From positions 1 to 15,169 of the forward strand of contig CALVUU010000129.1 in the NCBI GenBank assembly GCA_944363655.1: a DNA stretch of 15,169 nucleotides. Direction: 5' to 3'. This document shows positions 7,279 through 12,957 of the stretch, one piece after another. The position numbers and the translations under genes are program-made. The DNA is from an uncultured Bacilli bacterium (lineage in GTDB: Bacteria > Bacillota_I > Bacilli_A > RF39 > UBA660). How positions within the stretch are numbered: the first letter of the stretch is position 1; every line of letters starts with the position of its first letter. The notes beneath the pieces are model-generated. The model saw nothing but the letters and a program-made list of their open reading frames with translations. It was not told where the DNA came from and searched no databases.

Positions 7279-7635
7279 CTAACCTTCTTTATAAGTACAA
7301 ATCATTTTGTCATCTTTAAAAGAGATTTGTATATAACTAGATGTATCTTCACTAATCTTGGTGTTAGTTTTAGGATCAATTAAATCTTCCGACAAATAAT
7401 CTCGAGTTATTAAAGTATTAAATCCAACTTTGCAAAGATTTTCATAAGCATTACAAATTGCTTCCGTAAAGTTTTCTTCACTTGCATACTTGCAAGCAGC
7501 TTGGGAAACTTCGTTTTCAAAATCACTTATTTCTTTAGCTTTTTGACCACCGAATATTAATACTATTACCAATAGTGTTACCAAGATTATTATTAAAACT
7601 AACAATATTATTAAAACCCGTTTTTTATTCTTCAT
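7279..7635 (-). CDS. Degenerate pilin-like membrane protein
   Basis: The product has 118 residues from ATG 7633-7635; a GTG at 7642-7644 is also in frame but more likely forms part of the GTGAT Shine-Dalgarno. A very hydrophobic helix (about 6-30) is followed by GGQKAKEISDFENEVSQAACKYA. The remainder, with conserved spacing ACKYA ... LITRDYLSEDLIDP ... ICTYKEG, lines up with the prepilin encoded just upstream (ACVYA ... LIQEGLLSSDLNNP ... TCLYEQ), so the two look like paralogues. This copy lacks the G-F-T-L-x-E cleavage motif, so it cannot be a standard substrate of prepilin peptidase. It lies 2 nt upstream of rnr and must share its transcript. Function unknown; possibly a membrane-fixed pilus assembly partner. 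Confidence 0.7.
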   Translation of the reverse strand: MKNKKRVLIILLVLIIILVTLLVIVLIFGGQKAKEISDFENEVSQAACKYASEENFTEAICNAYENLCKVGFNTLITRDYLSEDLIDPKTNTKISEDTSSYIQISFKDDKMICTYKEG

Positions 7636-7650
7636 TTTTATCACACTCTA

Positions 7651-7662
7651 AGTATAACATAT
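7651..7662 (-). promoter_or_regulatory. Possible extended -10 before the pilin-like/rnr operon
   Basis: On the minus strand ATGTTATACTTA contains TGT-TATACT, an extended -10 form, about 20 nt before the pilin-like start. No clear -35 was found in the A/T-rich gap. No terminator was seen between the prepilin gene and this point, so co-transcription from the prepilin is equally possible. Confidence 0.35.
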
Positions 7663-7683
7663 TTATTAAAAATTAAAAATATT

Positions 7684-8028
7684 TTATTGTTCATAAAGAC
7701 AAGTTCTTTTGCCATTGGACCAGTTAATATTTACTTTATCACTTCCATATTCTGCAACAGGCTTATTTTCAACTGGATTATTTAAATCACTACTCAATAA
7801 ACCTTCTTGAATTAAAGTATTAATTTCAACTGTTGTTGAAAACATTATATTATTTATTTCGGCATAAACACAAGCTGCTTCTTCAATGGTATTATTATAT
7901 TCTTCAACTCGTTTTTCATCTTGACGAGAAAGCATACCACTCATACTAACTCCAATTGTAACAGAAATAATAGCAATTAAAGTAATTGTAATTATTAATT
8001 CAACTAATGTAAATCCTTTATTTTTCAT
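7684..8028 (-). CDS. Type IV prepilin-like protein with GFTLVE motif
   Basis: The product has 114 residues. MKNKG/FTLVELIITITLIAI is a classic type III signal: a short basic leader of five residues, prepilin peptidase cleavage after Gly5, Glu at mature position 5 (Glu10) and a hydrophobic helix (about 8-28). It would be processed and assembled into a pilus or pseudopilus, or into a competence-type fibre. The C-terminal part is short and contains two cysteines (AACVYAE and RTCLYEQ), which could form a disulfide. No prepilin peptidase, ATPase or PilC-like gene is in this window, so the machinery must be elsewhere. Translation is likely from a GTGAT-type Shine-Dalgarno. The next minus-strand gene is its degenerate paralogue. 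Confidence 0.85.
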   Translation of the reverse strand: MKNKGFTLVELIITITLIAIISVTIGVSMSGMLSRQDEKRVEEYNNTIEEAACVYAEINNIMFSTTVEINTLIQEGLLSSDLNNPVENKPVAEYGSDKVNINWSNGKRTCLYEQ

Positions 8029-8475: not shown

Positions 8476-9306
8476 TCATTGTGTAGGTGCACACACAAAT
8501 CTAGAAGCCACGTAATTTGCTCCATTTTCTATTATATCAGTAATTTCAACTCCTCCGAGAATATAATTAGTACATATACTACTACCATCTATATAAAAAT
8601 TATCTGTATTGTAGTCGCTATCAATCCATTCTTGCCAAGTCAAACCTTTTTTTGAATAAAACGTTGTTACAGATCCATTATAATATGTTACTGTAAAACT
8701 TATTAAATCAGAAATAGTTGTAAAATTTGTATTATAATTACTAGACTTTCTGTCGTTGCTGTCCGTTACATAAACTTTTATATTATAATTGGTCTCTGCA
8801 TTTAAATTTTCAAAAATATAAGTATTACTATTACTAGAGACATATTCACTATCATTAATGGCATAATGGTAACTTACTATTTCCCCATCTCCTGGTATTG
8901 CACTTACACTTACTGTGATACTATTAGAGGTTATTTCTGTTGCTGAAACACTTGTTATTTCTGAGACAATATACTTATCAAAATAAACATAGCATTTGTC
9001 TGATGTATTTGCTTGCATTATAATTCTTTTGCTTTCATTATCCCATGTAAGTTTACTACCATTTTCACAACCGGATAATTTTTCGTTAAAAATATAACCC
9101 TCCTGCGGCCAAGACGAATCACTTGATACTTGATACTCTCCACTATTTTCTTCTGTTTCATACATCATTGTTAATGCGTTAGAATTAACTATCTTTTTAT
9201 TAGTAGAATTGCTTATTATTTCTTTACTATTATTAAAATTATAAATAGAAGATACTATAACAATTGTTAATAACAAGCTACTTATCAACATTAATTTTCT
9301 ATACAT
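8476..9306 (-). CDS. Surface protein with shared N-terminal module and Fn3-like domain
   Basis: The product has 276 residues, with the start placed at ATG 9304-9306 behind AAAGGAGAA. An upstream in-frame start (9336) lies inside the promoter palindrome region and is rejected. Residues 1-22 form a signal anchor or signal peptide. A module at about 43-108 (LTMMYETEENSGEYQVSS ... CENGSKLTW ... DKCYVYFDK, two cysteines) is nearly identical to that of the other surface protein in the window. Next comes a fibronectin type III-like domain (about 110-200: SVSATEITSNSITVSVSA ... YHYAINDSEYV ... LNAETNYNIKVYVTDSN), then a C-terminal stretch of about 75 residues with YYNGSVTTFYSKKGLTWQEW and two cysteines. 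There is no LPXTG or other sorting signal. Probable exported adhesin or antigen; no named family was recognised for the N-terminal module or the C-terminus. Confidence 0.75.
   Translation of the reverse strand: MYRKLMLISSLLLTIVIVSSIYNFNNSKEIISNSTNKKIVNSNALTMMYETEENSGEYQVSSDSSWPQEGYIFNEKLSGCENGSKLTWDNESKRIIMQANTSDKCYVYFDKYIVSEITSVSATEITSNSITVSVSAIPGDGEIVSYHYAINDSEYVSSNSNTYIFENLNAETNYNIKVYVTDSNDRKSSNYNTNFTTISDLISFTVTYYNGSVTTFYSKKGLTWQEWIDSDYNTDNFYIDGSSICTNYILGGVEITDIIENGANYVASRFVCAPTQ
8975..9174 (-). repeat. 200-bp direct repeat, copy 1 (N-terminal module of surface protein)
   Basis: This pairs without gaps with 11867-12066 (constant offset 2892). By hand I count 14 differences in 200 bases, all in 9022-9073; the last 101 bases (9074-9174) are identical, including silent positions. 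It encodes the shared module from about LTMMYETEE to CYVYFDK. Confidence 0.95.
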
Positions 9307-9330
9307 TAATAATTCTCCTTTGTGTATTAC

Positions 9331-9342
9331 ATACACGTGTAT
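9331..9342. promoter_or_regulatory. Second operator-like palindrome ATACACGTGTAT
   Basis: This perfect 12-bp palindrome falls just after the expected transcription start of the minus-strand surface-protein gene. With GTGTAT at 9322-9327 it forms a cluster of the same half-site used in the larger palindrome at 9365-9390, giving five GTGTAT/ATACAC copies in 64 bp. Probable binding site for the adjacent HTH protein. Confidence 0.6.
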
Positions 9343-9351
9343 TTTAAATTA

Positions 9352-9380
9352 ATTATAATAAGTTATTTTGTGTATGTCAA
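9352..9380 (-). promoter_or_regulatory. Consensus sigma-70 type promoter of the surface-protein gene
   Basis: On the minus strand TTGACA (9375-9380) and TATAAT (9352-9357) are separated by exactly 17 nt, a perfect match to the housekeeping consensus. The -35 lies in the centre of the 26-bp palindrome, so a bound repressor would block RNA polymerase. Confidence 0.85.
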
Positions 9381-9390
9381 TACACAAAAT
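9365..9390. promoter_or_regulatory. 26-bp operator palindrome over the -35 element
   Basis: Perfect arms ATTTTGTGTAT (9365-9375) and ATACACAAAAT (9380-9390) flank GTCA. It covers the -35 of the minus-strand gene and ends next to the promoter of the plus-strand HTH gene, so one protein could control both directions. Autorepression by the HipB-like protein is the simplest reading. Confidence 0.75.
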
Positions 9391-9410
9391 ACAAAGATAA
9401 TAGATATTAT

Positions 9411-9419
9411 TGTTATAAT
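9411..9419 (+). promoter_or_regulatory. Extended -10 promoter of the HipB-like gene
   Basis: TGTTATAAT is a TGN-TATAAT extended -10; the -35 at 17 nt is poor (ACAAAG). Transcription would begin near 9426, only about four bases before the ATG at 9430, so the message would be nearly leaderless. Confidence 0.6.
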
Positions 9420-9429
9420 TCTAGTTGTG

Positions 9430-9657
9430 ATGAATATGGAAATCAAAGCAAATAAATATAAAGGTAAAGATATTTTAAAGTTTATTAGACAAAATTCTAA
9501 TATGACTCAAAAAGAATTTGCTGAGACTATTAATAAAACAAGAGATTGGCAAGCATCGAATGAAACTGGAAGAAGTAGATATTTTATCGATGATTTAATT
9601 AATATAGCAAACACTCATAATTTAGAAATTATTATAAAGGATAAAACTCAAAAATAG
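9430..9657 (+). CDS. XRE-type HTH protein, probable HipB-like antitoxin
   Basis: The product has 75 residues from ATG 9430; a second in-frame ATG at 9436 is possible. The helix-turn-helix is about residues 24-43 (MTQKEFAETINKTRDWQASN), and the rest (about 44-70) is helical with DDLINIANTHNLEIIIKDK, as in small HipB and XRE proteins. It lies directly upstream of a HipA-like kinase gene on the same strand, the usual order for hipBA-type toxin-antitoxin pairs, and directly downstream of two operator-like palindromes. The expected role is neutralising the kinase and repressing its own promoter; it may also repress the divergent surface-protein gene. Assignment rests on HTH pattern and context rather than on a close family match. 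Confidence 0.7.
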   Translation: MNMEIKANKYKGKDILKFIRQNSNMTQKEFAETINKTRDWQASNETGRSRYFIDDLINIANTHNLEIIIKDKTQK

Positions 9658-9679
9658 CACGCATAAAGTGTTATTTTTA
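9651..9679 (+). terminator. Hairpin terminator or attenuator between HipB- and HipA-like genes
   Basis: AAAATAGCAC (9651-9660) and GTGTTATTTT (9668-9677) form a 10-bp stem with one G-U pair, loop GCATAAA and a T run. The stem overlaps the TAG stop of the HTH gene. It should reduce read-through into the kinase gene. Confidence 0.75.
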
Positions 9680-9686
9680 TAAAATA

Positions 9687-9715
9687 TAGACTTTTAAGTT
9701 AAAATCTTGTACAAT
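9687..9715 (+). promoter_or_regulatory. Candidate separate promoter of the HipA-like gene
   Basis: TAGACT (9687-9692), 17 nt, then TACAAT (9710-9715) are one and two mismatches from consensus-like hexamers. Together with the hairpin just before it, this suggests that the kinase gene is transcribed on its own. A Shine-Dalgarno GAAGGTGA precedes the ATG at 9740. Confidence 0.5.
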
Positions 9716-9739
9716 TAGGATAATTAAAGAAGGTGAATT

Positions 9740-10918
9740 ATGTTATATACATTTATGAATAAAAATTATAAATTGTTTGATTTTGAATATGATTTTAAAA
9801 TTAATGCAATTATAAATATAACTAATATTTATGATAAATCTCGTTTGCCACTCTTTTTAGCAAATAGTAATAATGAATATTTAATAAGTAATTTTAATTC
9901 TTGGTTAAGTCAAAGATATTCTAAAAATAGCAGTTGGTTTAAAAAACAACAATGGAATTATAATTTTTTAAAATTAACTAATGATTTAGTTATTAAATCT
10001 TATGGTTTATCTTTATCAGATCAGTATTGGATAAAACCAAAATCTGATGATAAAACTTGGGAAGAAATTAATTTTTTTACTAATGATTTTGTATTTAAAA
10101 GTTTTATAACCAATTTAAGTCGTGAGTATAATTATGGTAGTGTTGATGTATTATATTCACCTGATATAACTACTGGGGGAGAAGTTGATAAGGCATGGAT
10201 AATTGAAAATGATGTAAGAATACTTTGTAAATCCTCTAATACATTTTTAGGAATAGAACCAATTAATGAATGGATAGCCAGTAAAATAGCAGAAATTATT
10301 AATTTACCACATGTAATATATGATATAAAATTATTATCTAATTTGGAAAAAAAGACAATGGTATCGACTTGCCCTACTTTTATAAACGAAAATACTGAAT
10401 TAATTCCTGCTTTTCAAATAATAAAAAAAGATGATAGCGTTGAGTATGAATATGAAAAATATATTGAAACATTGAATAACCATGGTATTAACAACGCTAA
10501 AGAAAAAATAGATAAAATGATATTACTTGATTTAATTATGAGTAATTGTGATAGACATATGAATAATTACGGAGTTATAAGAGATATAAATACTTTAAAA
10601 TGGTTAGATGTTGCTCCAATTTATGATACAGGTAGATCACTTGCTACATCTTATCCTAGTGTACAAGATTATGATGATACTATTATTTTATTTACTCATG
10701 CTTGTAAAAGAAAAGATGCCTTTAAATTCATTAAAGATATTGAATTATCAGTAGAACAAATAAGTAAATTAAAAGAAATACCAATTCAATATAAAGAAAT
10801 GCTTTTAAAATACAAAAAATATACTAATATTAAAGAAGATAATAATAAAAAAGTTGAAGAGATAGTAGCATTACTTAGTAAAAATATTAATGAAGTTTTG
10901 AACCTTAATAGCAAATAA
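9740..10918 (+). CDS. HipA-like serine/threonine kinase, probable toxin
   Basis: The product has 392 residues. The N-terminal part (about 1-130) contains SLSDQYWIKPKSDDKTWEEI, a segment seen in many Firmicutes HipA-like proteins. The kinase part follows: a glycine-containing loop TTGGEVDKAW (144-153), candidate ATP-binding Lys164 in RILCKSSN, catalytic motif NCDRHMNNYGV (Asp271, Asn276) and metal-binding Asp296 in APIYDTGRS. These correspond to Asp309, Asn314 and Asp332 of E. coli HipA. HipA kinases phosphorylate tRNA synthetases or other translation factors and slow growth; the target here is unknown. All key residues are present, so it is probably active. The very low GC content matches its neighbours. 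Paired with the HTH protein upstream and convergent with a surface-protein gene. Confidence 0.82.
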   Translation: MLYTFMNKNYKLFDFEYDFKINAIINITNIYDKSRLPLFLANSNNEYLISNFNSWLSQRYSKNSSWFKKQQWNYNFLKLTNDLVIKSYGLSLSDQYWIKPKSDDKTWEEINFFTNDFVFKSFITNLSREYNYGSVDVLYSPDITTGGEVDKAWIIENDVRILCKSSNTFLGIEPINEWIASKIAEIINLPHVIYDIKLLSNLEKKTMVSTCPTFINENTELIPAFQIIKKDDSVEYEYEKYIETLNNHGINNAKEKIDKMILLDLIMSNCDRHMNNYGVIRDINTLKWLDVAPIYDTGRSLATSYPSVQDYDDTIILFTHACKRKDAFKFIKDIELSVEQISKLKEIPIQYKEMLLKYKKYTNIKEDNNKKVEEIVALLSKNINEVLNLNSK

Positions 10919-10950
10919 AAACTCCATAAGGAGTTTTTATTTGCTATTAA
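10905..10950. terminator. Bidirectional terminator with a 21-bp perfect stem
   Basis: Arms 10905-10925 and 10930-10950 are perfectly complementary over 21 bp around an ATAA loop. The core is AAAAACTCC and GGAGTTTTT, so T runs occur inside the 3' arm on both strands. The kinase stop codon (10916-10918) lies within the left arm and the surface-protein stop (10951) directly abuts the right arm. Confidence 0.9.
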
Positions 10951-12198
10951 TTATTCAATGATGTAAGGGTCAGATAAAGTTCCTGTACCGGAGATGTAGG
11001 CTACATCTGAGTTTAGATAAAATGTAGGCCGAGCAGCAACGTCTTCTAAAATAACATTAACACATCCCGTAGTTATACTGCCTCTATCTCGCAAATTAAA
11101 TACATATAACACTCCACTATCAGAATCAGAACGGCGAGTAATTGTCCATTCCATTTGCCCCATAAACATCCAGTTATTATTTCTATTTGTATTGTTATCA
11201 TAATTATATAAATTTGTATTCCAATTTGCAGGACTCGCGGCATAGCCATAATCACTTACATACATTAATCCTATTTTTGCATCGTATGTAGTATTTAATG
11301 CTGGATTTACTATTTCATTTTGATATGTTTGTTTTACTGGAACATTATATATGTTATCTATTATATTACCTCCAACTTTCCAGTTTGTTGTTGCAATTAA
11401 ATTATTCCATTTACTTCCTATATTATCAAGAAAATTTTGATTTAAATTTATTGTATTTAATTCACTTTCGCTCCATGTATTTGTCCGCGTACTATTATTC
11501 CAATAATATCTATCAATTGTTGTTTTTGTTCCTTTATAATAAGTTGAACTTGTGTTACTATATACTCTATTGGAATATTCTCCATTTGTTCCCAATAAGT
11601 CACTATTTGCATATTCATATTTTATCAATTTAACTTGGTTACCAAATACTCCAATGATACGATATAAGTTATCATTTGGGCACGTTGTATCATCTGATCC
11701 AAAGCATACATAATTATTTGGGTTTGCTCCACTATAACGATAACTATAATCTGCCGATTCAAGCGCACCATACGTACCTTGTCCATCGTGATAATATAAT
11801 CCGTTTTCACCATCACTTGAATACAAACCTTTGATATAATCTGCTAAGTGTTCTTTATCAGATTCTTTATCAAAATAAACATAGCATTTGTCTGATGTAT
11901 TTGCTTGCATTATTACTTTATTTGTTTTACTATCCCATGTAAGAGTACTATTATTTTCACAATCAGATAATTTTTCGTTAAAAATATAACCCTCCTGCGG
12001 CCAAGACGAATCACTTGATACTTGATACTCTCCACTATTTTCTTCTGTTTCATACATCATTGTTAAAACACTATTGTTAATAACTTGTGAATTATTAATA
12101 GTATTTTTATATACTATTTTTTTATTATTTGGAACATAATATAAATATAATGTAATAATACTTAAAAATATTATTAAACCTAGTAATAATTTTTTCAT
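10951..12198 (-). CDS. Large surface protein with shared N-terminal module
   Basis: The product has 415 residues. MKKLLLGLIIFLSIITLYLYY is a signal anchor or signal peptide. Residues about 44-111 repeat the module of the 276-residue surface protein (LTMMYETEENSGEYQVSS ... CENNSTLTW ... DKCYVYFDK). The remaining ~300 residues form one large domain: LYYHDGQGTYGALESADYSYRYSG, NYVCFGSDDTTCPNDNLYRIIGVFGNQVKLIKYE, a Trp/Asn/Tyr-rich middle with TWSESELNTINLNQNFLDNIG, GLMYVSDYGYAASPANWN, and the end ARPTFYLNSDVAYISGTGTLSDPYIIE. The layout recalls DUF6273-like exported domains, but I do not assign it. No sorting motif. The start at ATG 12196-12198 has GAGGTGT as Shine-Dalgarno. Likely an exposed antigen or adhesin. 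Confidence 0.75.
   Translation of the reverse strand: MKKLLLGLIIFLSIITLYLYYVPNNKKIVYKNTINNSQVINNSVLTMMYETEENSGEYQVSSDSSWPQEGYIFNEKLSDCENNSTLTWDSKTNKVIMQANTSDKCYVYFDKESDKEHLADYIKGLYSSDGENGLYYHDGQGTYGALESADYSYRYSGANPNNYVCFGSDDTTCPNDNLYRIIGVFGNQVKLIKYEYANSDLLGTNGEYSNRVYSNTSSTYYKGTKTTIDRYYWNNSTRTNTWSESELNTINLNQNFLDNIGSKWNNLIATTNWKVGGNIIDNIYNVPVKQTYQNEIVNPALNTTYDAKIGLMYVSDYGYAASPANWNTNLYNYDNNTNRNNNWMFMGQMEWTITRRSDSDSGVLYVFNLRDRGSITTGCVNVILEDVAARPTFYLNSDVAYISGTGTLSDPYIIE
11867..12066 (-). repeat. 200-bp direct repeat, copy 2 (N-terminal module of large surface protein)
   Basis: This is the partner of 8975-9174. Bases 11966-12066 are identical to 9074-9174, while the signal peptides upstream and the domains downstream are unrelated between the two proteins. 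The sharp edges inside the coding sequence point to a recent duplication or gene conversion of only this module. Confidence 0.95.
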
Positions 12199-12228: not shown

Positions 12229-12257
12229 ATTATAAACTATTTTTTTATTTTACACCA
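12229..12257 (-). promoter_or_regulatory. Promoter of the large surface-protein gene
   Basis: On the minus strand TATAAT (12229-12234) lies 17 nt after TGGTGT (12252-12257), a weak -35 embedded in the palindrome at 12251-12262. A weak -35 covered by an operator could need an activator rather than a repressor. Confidence 0.5.
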
Positions 12258-12262
12258 GTGTA
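12251..12262. promoter_or_regulatory. Operator-like palindrome TACACCAGTGTA
   Basis: Arms TACAC and GTGTA flank CA, using the same half-site as the palindromes at 9331-9342 and 9365-9390. It lies on the -35 of the minus-strand surface-protein promoter and just upstream of the promoter of the divergent XRE gene (TATAAT 12289-12294). Confidence 0.5.
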
Positions 12263-12318: not shown

Positions 12319-12579
12319 TTGAAAAAACTAAAAAGCAAAGATATTTTAGCGATTAATTTAAAATATTATAGATATAAAAATAATTTATCACAAGAAAAAT
12401 TTGCAGAAATGTTGGGAAGTACATTACCATATATTAATCAATTGGAAAATGGTAGAAGAAAGCCGACATTAGAACTTTTAGATAAATTTGCTAGTAAACT
12501 GGATATTACTAGCGCTGAATTAATTACTTATAACGAAAAACATAATATTTTAGCAAAAAGAATTGATGAAAAAAAATAA
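12319..12579 (+). CDS. XRE-family HTH transcriptional regulator with TTG start
   Basis: The product has 86 residues. The first possible start is TTG at 12319-12321, placed by AGAGGG at 12304-12309; the next ATG would delete half of the DNA-binding domain. The classic XRE helix-turn-helix is about residues 12-66: LKYYRYKNNLSQEKFAEMLG, then TLPYINQLENGRRKPTLELL, with the recognition helix TLPYINQLENG. It ends with a short basic tail. The gene is divergent from the large surface-protein gene with a shared intergenic palindrome, so it is the obvious candidate regulator of that gene. It is convergent with the HNH gene, and both share a terminator. Confidence 0.88.
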   Translation: MKKLKSKDILAINLKYYRYKNNLSQEKFAEMLGSTLPYINQLENGRRKPTLELLDKFASKLDITSAELITYNEKHNILAKRIDEKK

Positions 12580-12609
12580 CACTATCGATTTGTGACGGTG
12601 TTATTTTTT
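12571..12609. terminator. Bidirectional terminator between XRE and HNH genes
   Basis: AAAAAATAACAC (12571-12582) and GTGTTATTTTTT (12598-12609) form a perfect 12-bp stem around a 15-nt loop, with A and T runs at the outer ends. It overlaps the stop codons of both convergent genes. Confidence 0.85.
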
Positions 12610-12957
12610 ATACAAAACTCTTGTTAGAGCTTGTTTATATTCTCTAGATTCTTCTTCTAGTTCTGGGGATAAAGGTGCTTTATGTTCAATAATTTCATGA
12701 AAAAATTCATTAATCAAACAATATAAATAGACATCTCTTGATTCACACATATTTAAAGCTCTATGTGATTTTTTTGTTAATAATGCAGCATTATCAACTT
12801 GTAATTTACCACCTTCAGATTTTTCATCTACGTGATGAATTGTTAATTTATTTTGTTTTGTTATTTGATAACTTAGCCAATCATATATTGTGGGCTTATA
12901 TATTTCTATTAATTGTTGTAATAATATTTGACTTTCATTAGTATAGATCTTGCCCAT
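12601..12957 (-). CDS. HNH-type nuclease-like small protein
   Basis: The product has 118 residues from an ATG behind AAGGAGGAA. The core LTIHHVDEKSEGGKLQVDNA followed by ALLTKKSHRALN matches the HNH beta-beta-alpha metal fold: His41-His42, then Gly49-Gly50, Asn56 and His65. No zinc-ribbon cysteine pairs are present. The flanks are helical: the N-terminal KPTIYDWLSYQ, and a C-terminal tail from about residue 95 rich in Glu and Lys. Small HNH proteins serve as nicking or homing enzymes in phages and mobile elements, or as components of defence systems; nothing here picks among these. It is just downstream of secG, separated by a terminator, and no own promoter was visible in the 47-bp gap. Confidence 0.7.
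   Translation of the reverse strand: MGKIYTNESQILLQQLIEIYKPTIYDWLSYQITKQNKLTIHHVDEKSEGGKLQVDNAALLTKKSHRALNMCESRDVYLYCLINEFFHEIIEHKAPLSPELEEESREYKQALTRVLYKK

Follow-up and report, generated by a model that had tools for sequence, protein, structure and literature searches.

In paralogous surface-protein families the members share a conserved part, the variable part has been swapped or has diverged, and gene conversion leaves local tracts. IS492 of Pseudoalteromonas atlantica, an insertion sequence (IS) of the IS110 type, is found inside a surface-related gene, which it interrupts at a single exact position, and is reportedly capable of precise excision. Here we describe genes A and B of an uncultured Bacilli bacterium, which lie in a stretch of 15,169 nucleotides (contig CALVUU010000129.1, assembly GCA_944363655.1; hereafter the window) and encode predicted surface proteins built on one common N-terminal module, as well as an IS110-family element that sits in this module in three related genomes.

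The family to which A and B belong is of the general kind of paralogous surface proteins with intragenomic gene conversion, on which a review exists (PMC4534519); like the families outlined above it combines a conserved module with a variable outer part and local tracts. It differs in that nearly all copies read have their own N-terminal part and most have a divergent helix-turn-helix (HTH)-like gene, in that neither a silent store nor a single expression site was observed, and in that conservation lies on the N-terminal side, with an entirely different C-terminal fold from member to member. The IS110 element, for its part, resembles IS621 as described in the accessible portion of PMC11208160 in its recombinase domains, a core dinucleotide, a predicted left-end bridge RNA and donor guides that match the element ends; unlike IS621, it targets a repeated protein-coding module and is known from sequence alone. 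We conclude, with a probability of about 0.72, that A and B belong to a multi-copy family whose products are predicted to be surface proteins anchored in the membrane, and that the 101 identical bases that they share most likely stem from recent gene conversion. The features concerned are as follows.

8476..9306, minus strand: module gene A, 276 amino acids from the ATG at 9306 or 286 from a GTG at 9336; N-terminal helix, module, fibronectin type III domain and a small C-terminal part
9235..9303, minus strand: predicted hydrophobic N-terminal helix of A (residues 2-24), from a structure model and not a transmembrane predictor
8974..9174, minus strand: module in gene A, 67 codons, LTMMYETE...KCYVYFDK
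9074..9174, minus strand: copy of the 101-bp tract in gene A, by alignment, permutation test and codon comparison
8707..8973, minus strand: fibronectin type III domain of A (residues 112-200)
10951..12198, minus strand: module gene B, 415 amino acids; N-terminal helix, module and C-type-lectin-like domain
12136..12195, minus strand: predicted hydrophobic N-terminal helix of B (residues 2-21), from a structure model
11866..12066, minus strand: module in gene B, by alignment
11966..12066, minus strand: copy of the 101-bp tract in gene B, by alignment with 9074-9174
10954..11856, minus strand: C-type-lectin-like domain of B (residues 115-415)

A first-pass annotation of the window had counted 14 differences in 200 gapless bases, ending in 101 identical ones, and our recount agrees exactly: segments 8975-9174 and 11867-12066 differ at 14 positions, all within 9022-9073, and 9074-9174 is identical to 11966-12066 without interruption. 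Since both genes are on the minus strand, this run corresponds to the 5' part of the module (LTMMYETEENSGEYQVSSDSSWPQEGYIFNEKLS). The flanks are indeed unrelated, with identity dropping to 8-15 of 30 bases at each step beyond the module, and the borders are sharp, background identity being reached directly upstream of the 101-base run and shortly past KCYVYFDK. All 30 comparable codons inside the tract (those encoding the same residue in both copies, Met and Trp excluded) are identical between A and B; the full count listed 31, with the single mismatch just outside the tract. By contrast, when the window copies were compared over module codons 2-35 with the modules fetched from five close genomes (G001-G004 and G012), 1274 of 2010 comparable codons were identical (63%), and it is this difference that points to recent exchange of module DNA, most likely gene conversion; the annotation had proposed either recent module duplication or gene conversion. 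When the 15 differences between A and B were placed randomly with site weights, a run of this length arose in a fraction of 0.0004 of 5000 trials. The permutation was applied to 25 pairs with runs of at least 35 bases, drawn from 1891 pairs and uncorrected for that selection; ten pairs had values no higher than 0.0012, and in seven of the ten both copies come from a single genome (the window pair, two in G001, one in G002 and three in G010).

The same codon comparison disfavours strong selection on the module sequence as the force that keeps the DNA alike. An alignment of 12 modules has 32 invariant columns out of 68, but in the same stretch no more than 63% of comparable codons match the close genomes, and the equally strong DNA-level conservation in other genomes that would have spoken against recent exchange is absent (median identity between genomes 72% among 62 modules); we regard this explanation as scarcely credible. 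A recent tandem duplication of the 5' part of one gene, followed by divergence outside the module and without conversion, is a more serious candidate, given that A and B are directly oriented 2.9 kb apart and that a relative (locus L009) has an A-like and a B-like gene adjacent to each other, upstream of its thioredoxin-like gene. However, the N-terminal 43 residues of A and B are identical at just 13 positions, although they adjoin the identical tract. In the 46 bases past the tract, moreover, copy A is closer to L116, a module from a different genome (87% identity), than to copy B (76%), while the final 51 module bases are once more 94% alike between A and B, so that the module is a mosaic; we thus consider simple duplication unlikely. 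Collapse of two stretches into one sequence during metagenome assembly would also produce identity, and a number of module copies in related metagenome-assembled genomes (MAGs) lie at contig ends, where assemblers may stumble on them. Against such an artifact, near-identical versions of both window proteins (P0001 for B, and P0002) with the same tract residues are present on other contigs, and long tracts also occur in G001 and G010, which leaves this explanation very improbable.

The module family extends well beyond the window. A protein search found 220 module relatives among 256 candidates, and RNase R comparison gave MAGs labelled uncultured Bacilli bacterium as the closest genomes (85-88%); 16 related MAGs contain 4-22 module copies each. 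For DNA comparisons, 60 of approximately 200 module places were fetched from eight of these 16 MAGs, which together with the window gave 62 modules. In a genus survey 29 of 30 genomes carried the module, in 2-27 copies each (E up to 1e-10), and with the same cut-off 14 of 386 genomes sampled across the family had it, while none was found in the viral, phage and plasmid collections searched. Near the corresponding place, upstream of the pilin-like genes, L002 has an A-like gene, L008 a B-like gene and L009 one of each, and in L003, L005, L006 and L007 no A- or B-like gene was found between secG and the pilin-like genes. L002, the one relative examined as a possible recombinant of the two window loci, is none. 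Module copies in L147, L150, L166 and L169 are broken by frameshifts, stops or a deletion, which indicates that the family also decays.

Within this family, A and B carry different C-terminal domains behind the common module, as had been noted from the sequence. The fibronectin type III domain of A matches PF00041 at 30.1 bits (cut-off 25) with an agreeing fold, and residues 115-415 of B have an overall C-type-lectin-like fold that resembles the N-terminal domain of the immunoglobulin A (IgA) peptidase of Thomasclavelia ramosa (PDB 9qa6; 20% identity). Unlike that enzyme, as presented in the accessible part of PMC12237041, gene B has no peptidase domain; according to the same part, the peptidase is comparably active without its N-terminal domain. 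The module itself is predicted to be a beta domain of 67-68 residues that follows the N-terminal hydrophobic helix, and in A this helix is likely a membrane anchor, as judged from the structure model.

Comparison of family proteins supports the view that, over evolutionary time, domains were swapped at the module. In a set of 119 proteins, the N-terminal parts are at least 95% identical in 277 pairs, and in 17 of these the C-terminal parts are less than 50% identical or without a match; P0038 and P0094, for example, are identical at 117 of 117 residues, and thereafter nothing is detectable. The reverse pattern, with C-terminal parts alike and N-terminal parts less so, was found in two pairs. 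A nearest-relative comparison among 211 splittable proteins, in which the near-identical P0001 was set aside, likewise gave gene B different nearest relatives for its two halves, as P0004 matches it at 32 of 44 residues in the N-terminal part and 53 of 66 in the module but at only 69 of 280 beyond, whereas P0065 matches at 11 of 43 and then at 202 of 302. Gene A has a weaker version of the same pattern (25 of 43 then 59 of 166 for P0182; 16 of 44 then 108 of 165 for P0121). Such discordant halves suggest that domains have been shuffled at the module.

Several observations weigh against our conclusion. Three of the ten significant pairs join different MAGs, which may represent transfer or mis-binning, and all pairs other than that of the window were chosen for their long runs. 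Module DNA identity within genomes (median 73.5% over the 62 modules) is hardly above that between genomes (72.1%), so that the family has not been homogenised by exchange, which looks local and occasional. DNA-level evidence for the tract comes from one assembly, with P0001 and P0002 backing it at the protein level, and conversion is indistinguishable from a very recent partial duplication. Of the 17 pairs with like N-terminal and unlike C-terminal parts, 11 involve a single protein, P0011. Finally, surface location and binding are read from sequence and structure model only, and the model is less certain within the module (blocks of 70-85 in B).

The first-pass annotation had also likened the arrangement to a cassette system for variation of antigens or adhesins, which would lead one to expect a silent store with a single expression site; none was seen among the 62 copies. 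Both window genes instead have a divergent neighbor.

9436..9657, plus strand: HTH-like small protein, divergent, upstream of gene A; weak profile match below cut-off, with similar ones beside other module genes
12319..12579, plus strand: XRE-type HTH regulator, divergent, upstream of gene B; HTH_3 55.8 bits

A divergent open reading frame (ORF) of at least 60 residues, starting within approximately 470 bases of the start of the module gene, is present at 45 of the 62 loci and absent at 17. Of these 45 ORFs, 35 match Pfam HTH_3 and two match an Arc-type ribbon-helix-helix. A profile built from the divergent ORFs, and hence tested on the ORFs on which it was trained, matches 38 of 45, as compared to 9 of 201 control divergent ORFs beside 538 unannotated frames of at least 200 residues, a control set that may include a few module genes. 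In addition, 59 of the 62 copies have an in-frame stretch of at least 42 residues ahead of the module. With 59 copies that have their own 5' part and 38 of 62 that have a divergent HTH-like gene, a silent-cassette mechanism of antigen variation is not supported; to judge by these neighbors, most module copies look like separately controlled genes. Palindromes were also noted upstream of both window module genes, ACACGTGT at 9333-9340 and ACACCAGTGT at 12252-12261. None of the 60 other copies has them in its 150 upstream bases, the motif occurs in 5 of 1645 background windows, and they are possibly an operator common to A and B.

The most unusual feature of the family lies outside the window and is an IS110 element sitting in the module. 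Six module copies in G001, G003 and G012 break at one point, GATAA(A/G)TG or GAAAAATG, and continue into the same foreign DNA, an element of approximately 1.6 kb that encodes a recombinase of 399 amino acids with a DEDD/RuvC-like N-terminal domain (PF01548, 96.9 bits) and a Transposase_20 C-terminal domain (PF02371, 81 bits); its score against NF033542 (209.1 bits, cut-off 140) places it in the IS110 family. The element and the corresponding points in the window are as follows.

L118, 2209-3808 (G001): IS110-family element, with junctions in L117, L119, L130, L149, L170, L182, L185 and L186
8992..8993, minus strand: counterpart of the insertion point in module A (AAATG|CTATG), empty, by junction alignment
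11884..11885, minus strand: counterpart of the insertion point in module B, empty, by junction alignment

All six junctions read in the 16 MAGs for the variant left end GAGTAAA are in modules. The right end occurs with zero mismatches at four places, three of which run into the end of a module (CYVYFD, CYIYFD and CYVYYD) while the fourth halts at a contig end, so that 3 of 3 readable right junctions are in the module. Across the genus, there are 11 matches to the left end with AARTG; six are the module junctions and the other five lie outside modules, and the variant was seen in only 3 of 30 genomes. Family-wide, 53 matches were found in 29 of 386 genomes, and of the 30 flanks read that of G001 alone is a module; none of the sister insertions read is in a module, and they occupy other, mostly AT-rich sites. 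Insertions thus show that this variant has changed its target to the module. Left junctions read AA(A/G)TG|, right junctions ACGTG|TTAT and intact modules AA(A/G)TG(T/C)TAT, the two kinds of junction having been read at different insertion sites. Only TG is common to all, as fits an element that inserts at a core dinucleotide and does not duplicate its target. At the module position the element terminates the protein, and the interrupted gene in L130 has an uninterrupted version, P0012, that is 99% identical over 105 residues, in which respect the element is like IS492, though P0012 is from another assembly. In L119 the element is shortened, with its left end intact, its right part lost and the module end directly adjoining, so that not all copies could leave.

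A bridge RNA of the element is predicted to pick the module, and the RNA basis of the target change is only partly supported. Among the 22 elements examined, the stretch ahead of the recombinase gene is predicted to fold into a two-loop RNA (consensus of 14 sequences, in which 7 of 35 pairs show compensation). The left donor guide equals the right element end in 18 of 18 readable cases and the right donor guide equals the left end in 19 of 20 (the exception, L207, is a parsing fault, its end reading CACG), tracking the end variants AGAATGT, AGATTGT, AGAAAGT and AGATAGT as well as CACG, CATG and CAAG; because the search patterns fixed most bases, just three variable bases inform this test, two of them on the left side and one on the right. 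In the scheme described for IS621 in the available part of PMC11208160 the core is paired in all four guides, from which the L118 element departs, having GA after its left donor guide whereas its donor core is CA. Taken over 13 of the 22 elements, which are related so that their fits are not independent, target guides matched their own targets more closely than shuffled ones (left, P = 0.0001; first two positions on the right, P = 0.0005). The left target guide of the module-targeting element, whose target is inferred from other insertion sites, reaches a score of 5 of 7 on the module, where two of the pairs are G-U and one position is mismatched; its right guide pairs well only adjacent to the core. 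Of the twelve other targets, eleven give this left guide scores of 2-3.5, and the target of L224 gives 6; on the module target, the guide of L224 scores 6 and the others up to 5.5. The two window sites, with C after the core where the three readable right junctions have T, score 4.

These data raise the question of whether an RNA-guided IS110 recombinase recognises the module and, as a variation system, actively exchanges C-terminal domains between genes. In favor of such a role, all readable junctions of one variant are at a single module position in three genomes, this position is near the border where the C-terminal domains change, and a two-loop bridge RNA is predicted. Yet the window tract ends approximately 80 bases from the insertion position in a window that has no element, guides of other elements score up to 6 on the module as compared to 5 of 7 for the complete element, and the variant was seen in only 3 of 30 genus genomes; we therefore view this role as improbable. 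A broader scenario, which we offer as a long shot, is that of a Bacilli genus with a genome-wide surface gene set, most members with their own regulator and all with the common module, in which a natural RNA-guided IS110 element has been retargeted to one module codon pair so that one guide RNA addresses the whole family, switching single members off and perhaps restoring them by leaving, while its identical 1.6-kb copies in many members act as crossing points for exchange of outer domains. Under our preferred reading, recent gene conversion within a multi-copy surface family, the N-terminal helix would hold each protein in the membrane, with the module as a stalk domain and the C-terminal domain facing outward to bind something. 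RecA-type homologous recombination inside the module would copy tracts between genes and occasionally join an N-terminal half to a new C-terminal half, and the divergent small DNA-binding gene would set the expression of each copy separately. Where present, the IS110 element ends the protein at the module position; its precise departure is a proposal only.

Other genes near A and B include, between them at 9740-10918, one for a HipA-like protein (HipA_C 28.4 bits, just below the cut-off of 30.5), which adjoins a small HTH-like gene and has a 70-residue match near the same place in L003. A small HNH-endonuclease-like protein (PF01844, 25.8 bits) is encoded at 12604-12957 beside secG, as also in L006. 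Two small genes at 7279-8028 adjoin RNase R, both matching the same stretch in L012, and a prepilin N-methylation motif is found at 7684-8028.

The findings reported here illustrate how a small genome, of approximately 1-1.7 Mb, maintains a module in as many as 27 copies, with exchange of the outer domains that follow it. A and B are proposed display proteins of uncultured Bacilli, one of them lectin-like and related in fold to a domain of a gut IgA peptidase. The IS110 variant, in turn, represents a natural case of an element in a repeated coding module whose sister elements keep other targets, and thus makes natural bridge RNA retargeting directly testable.

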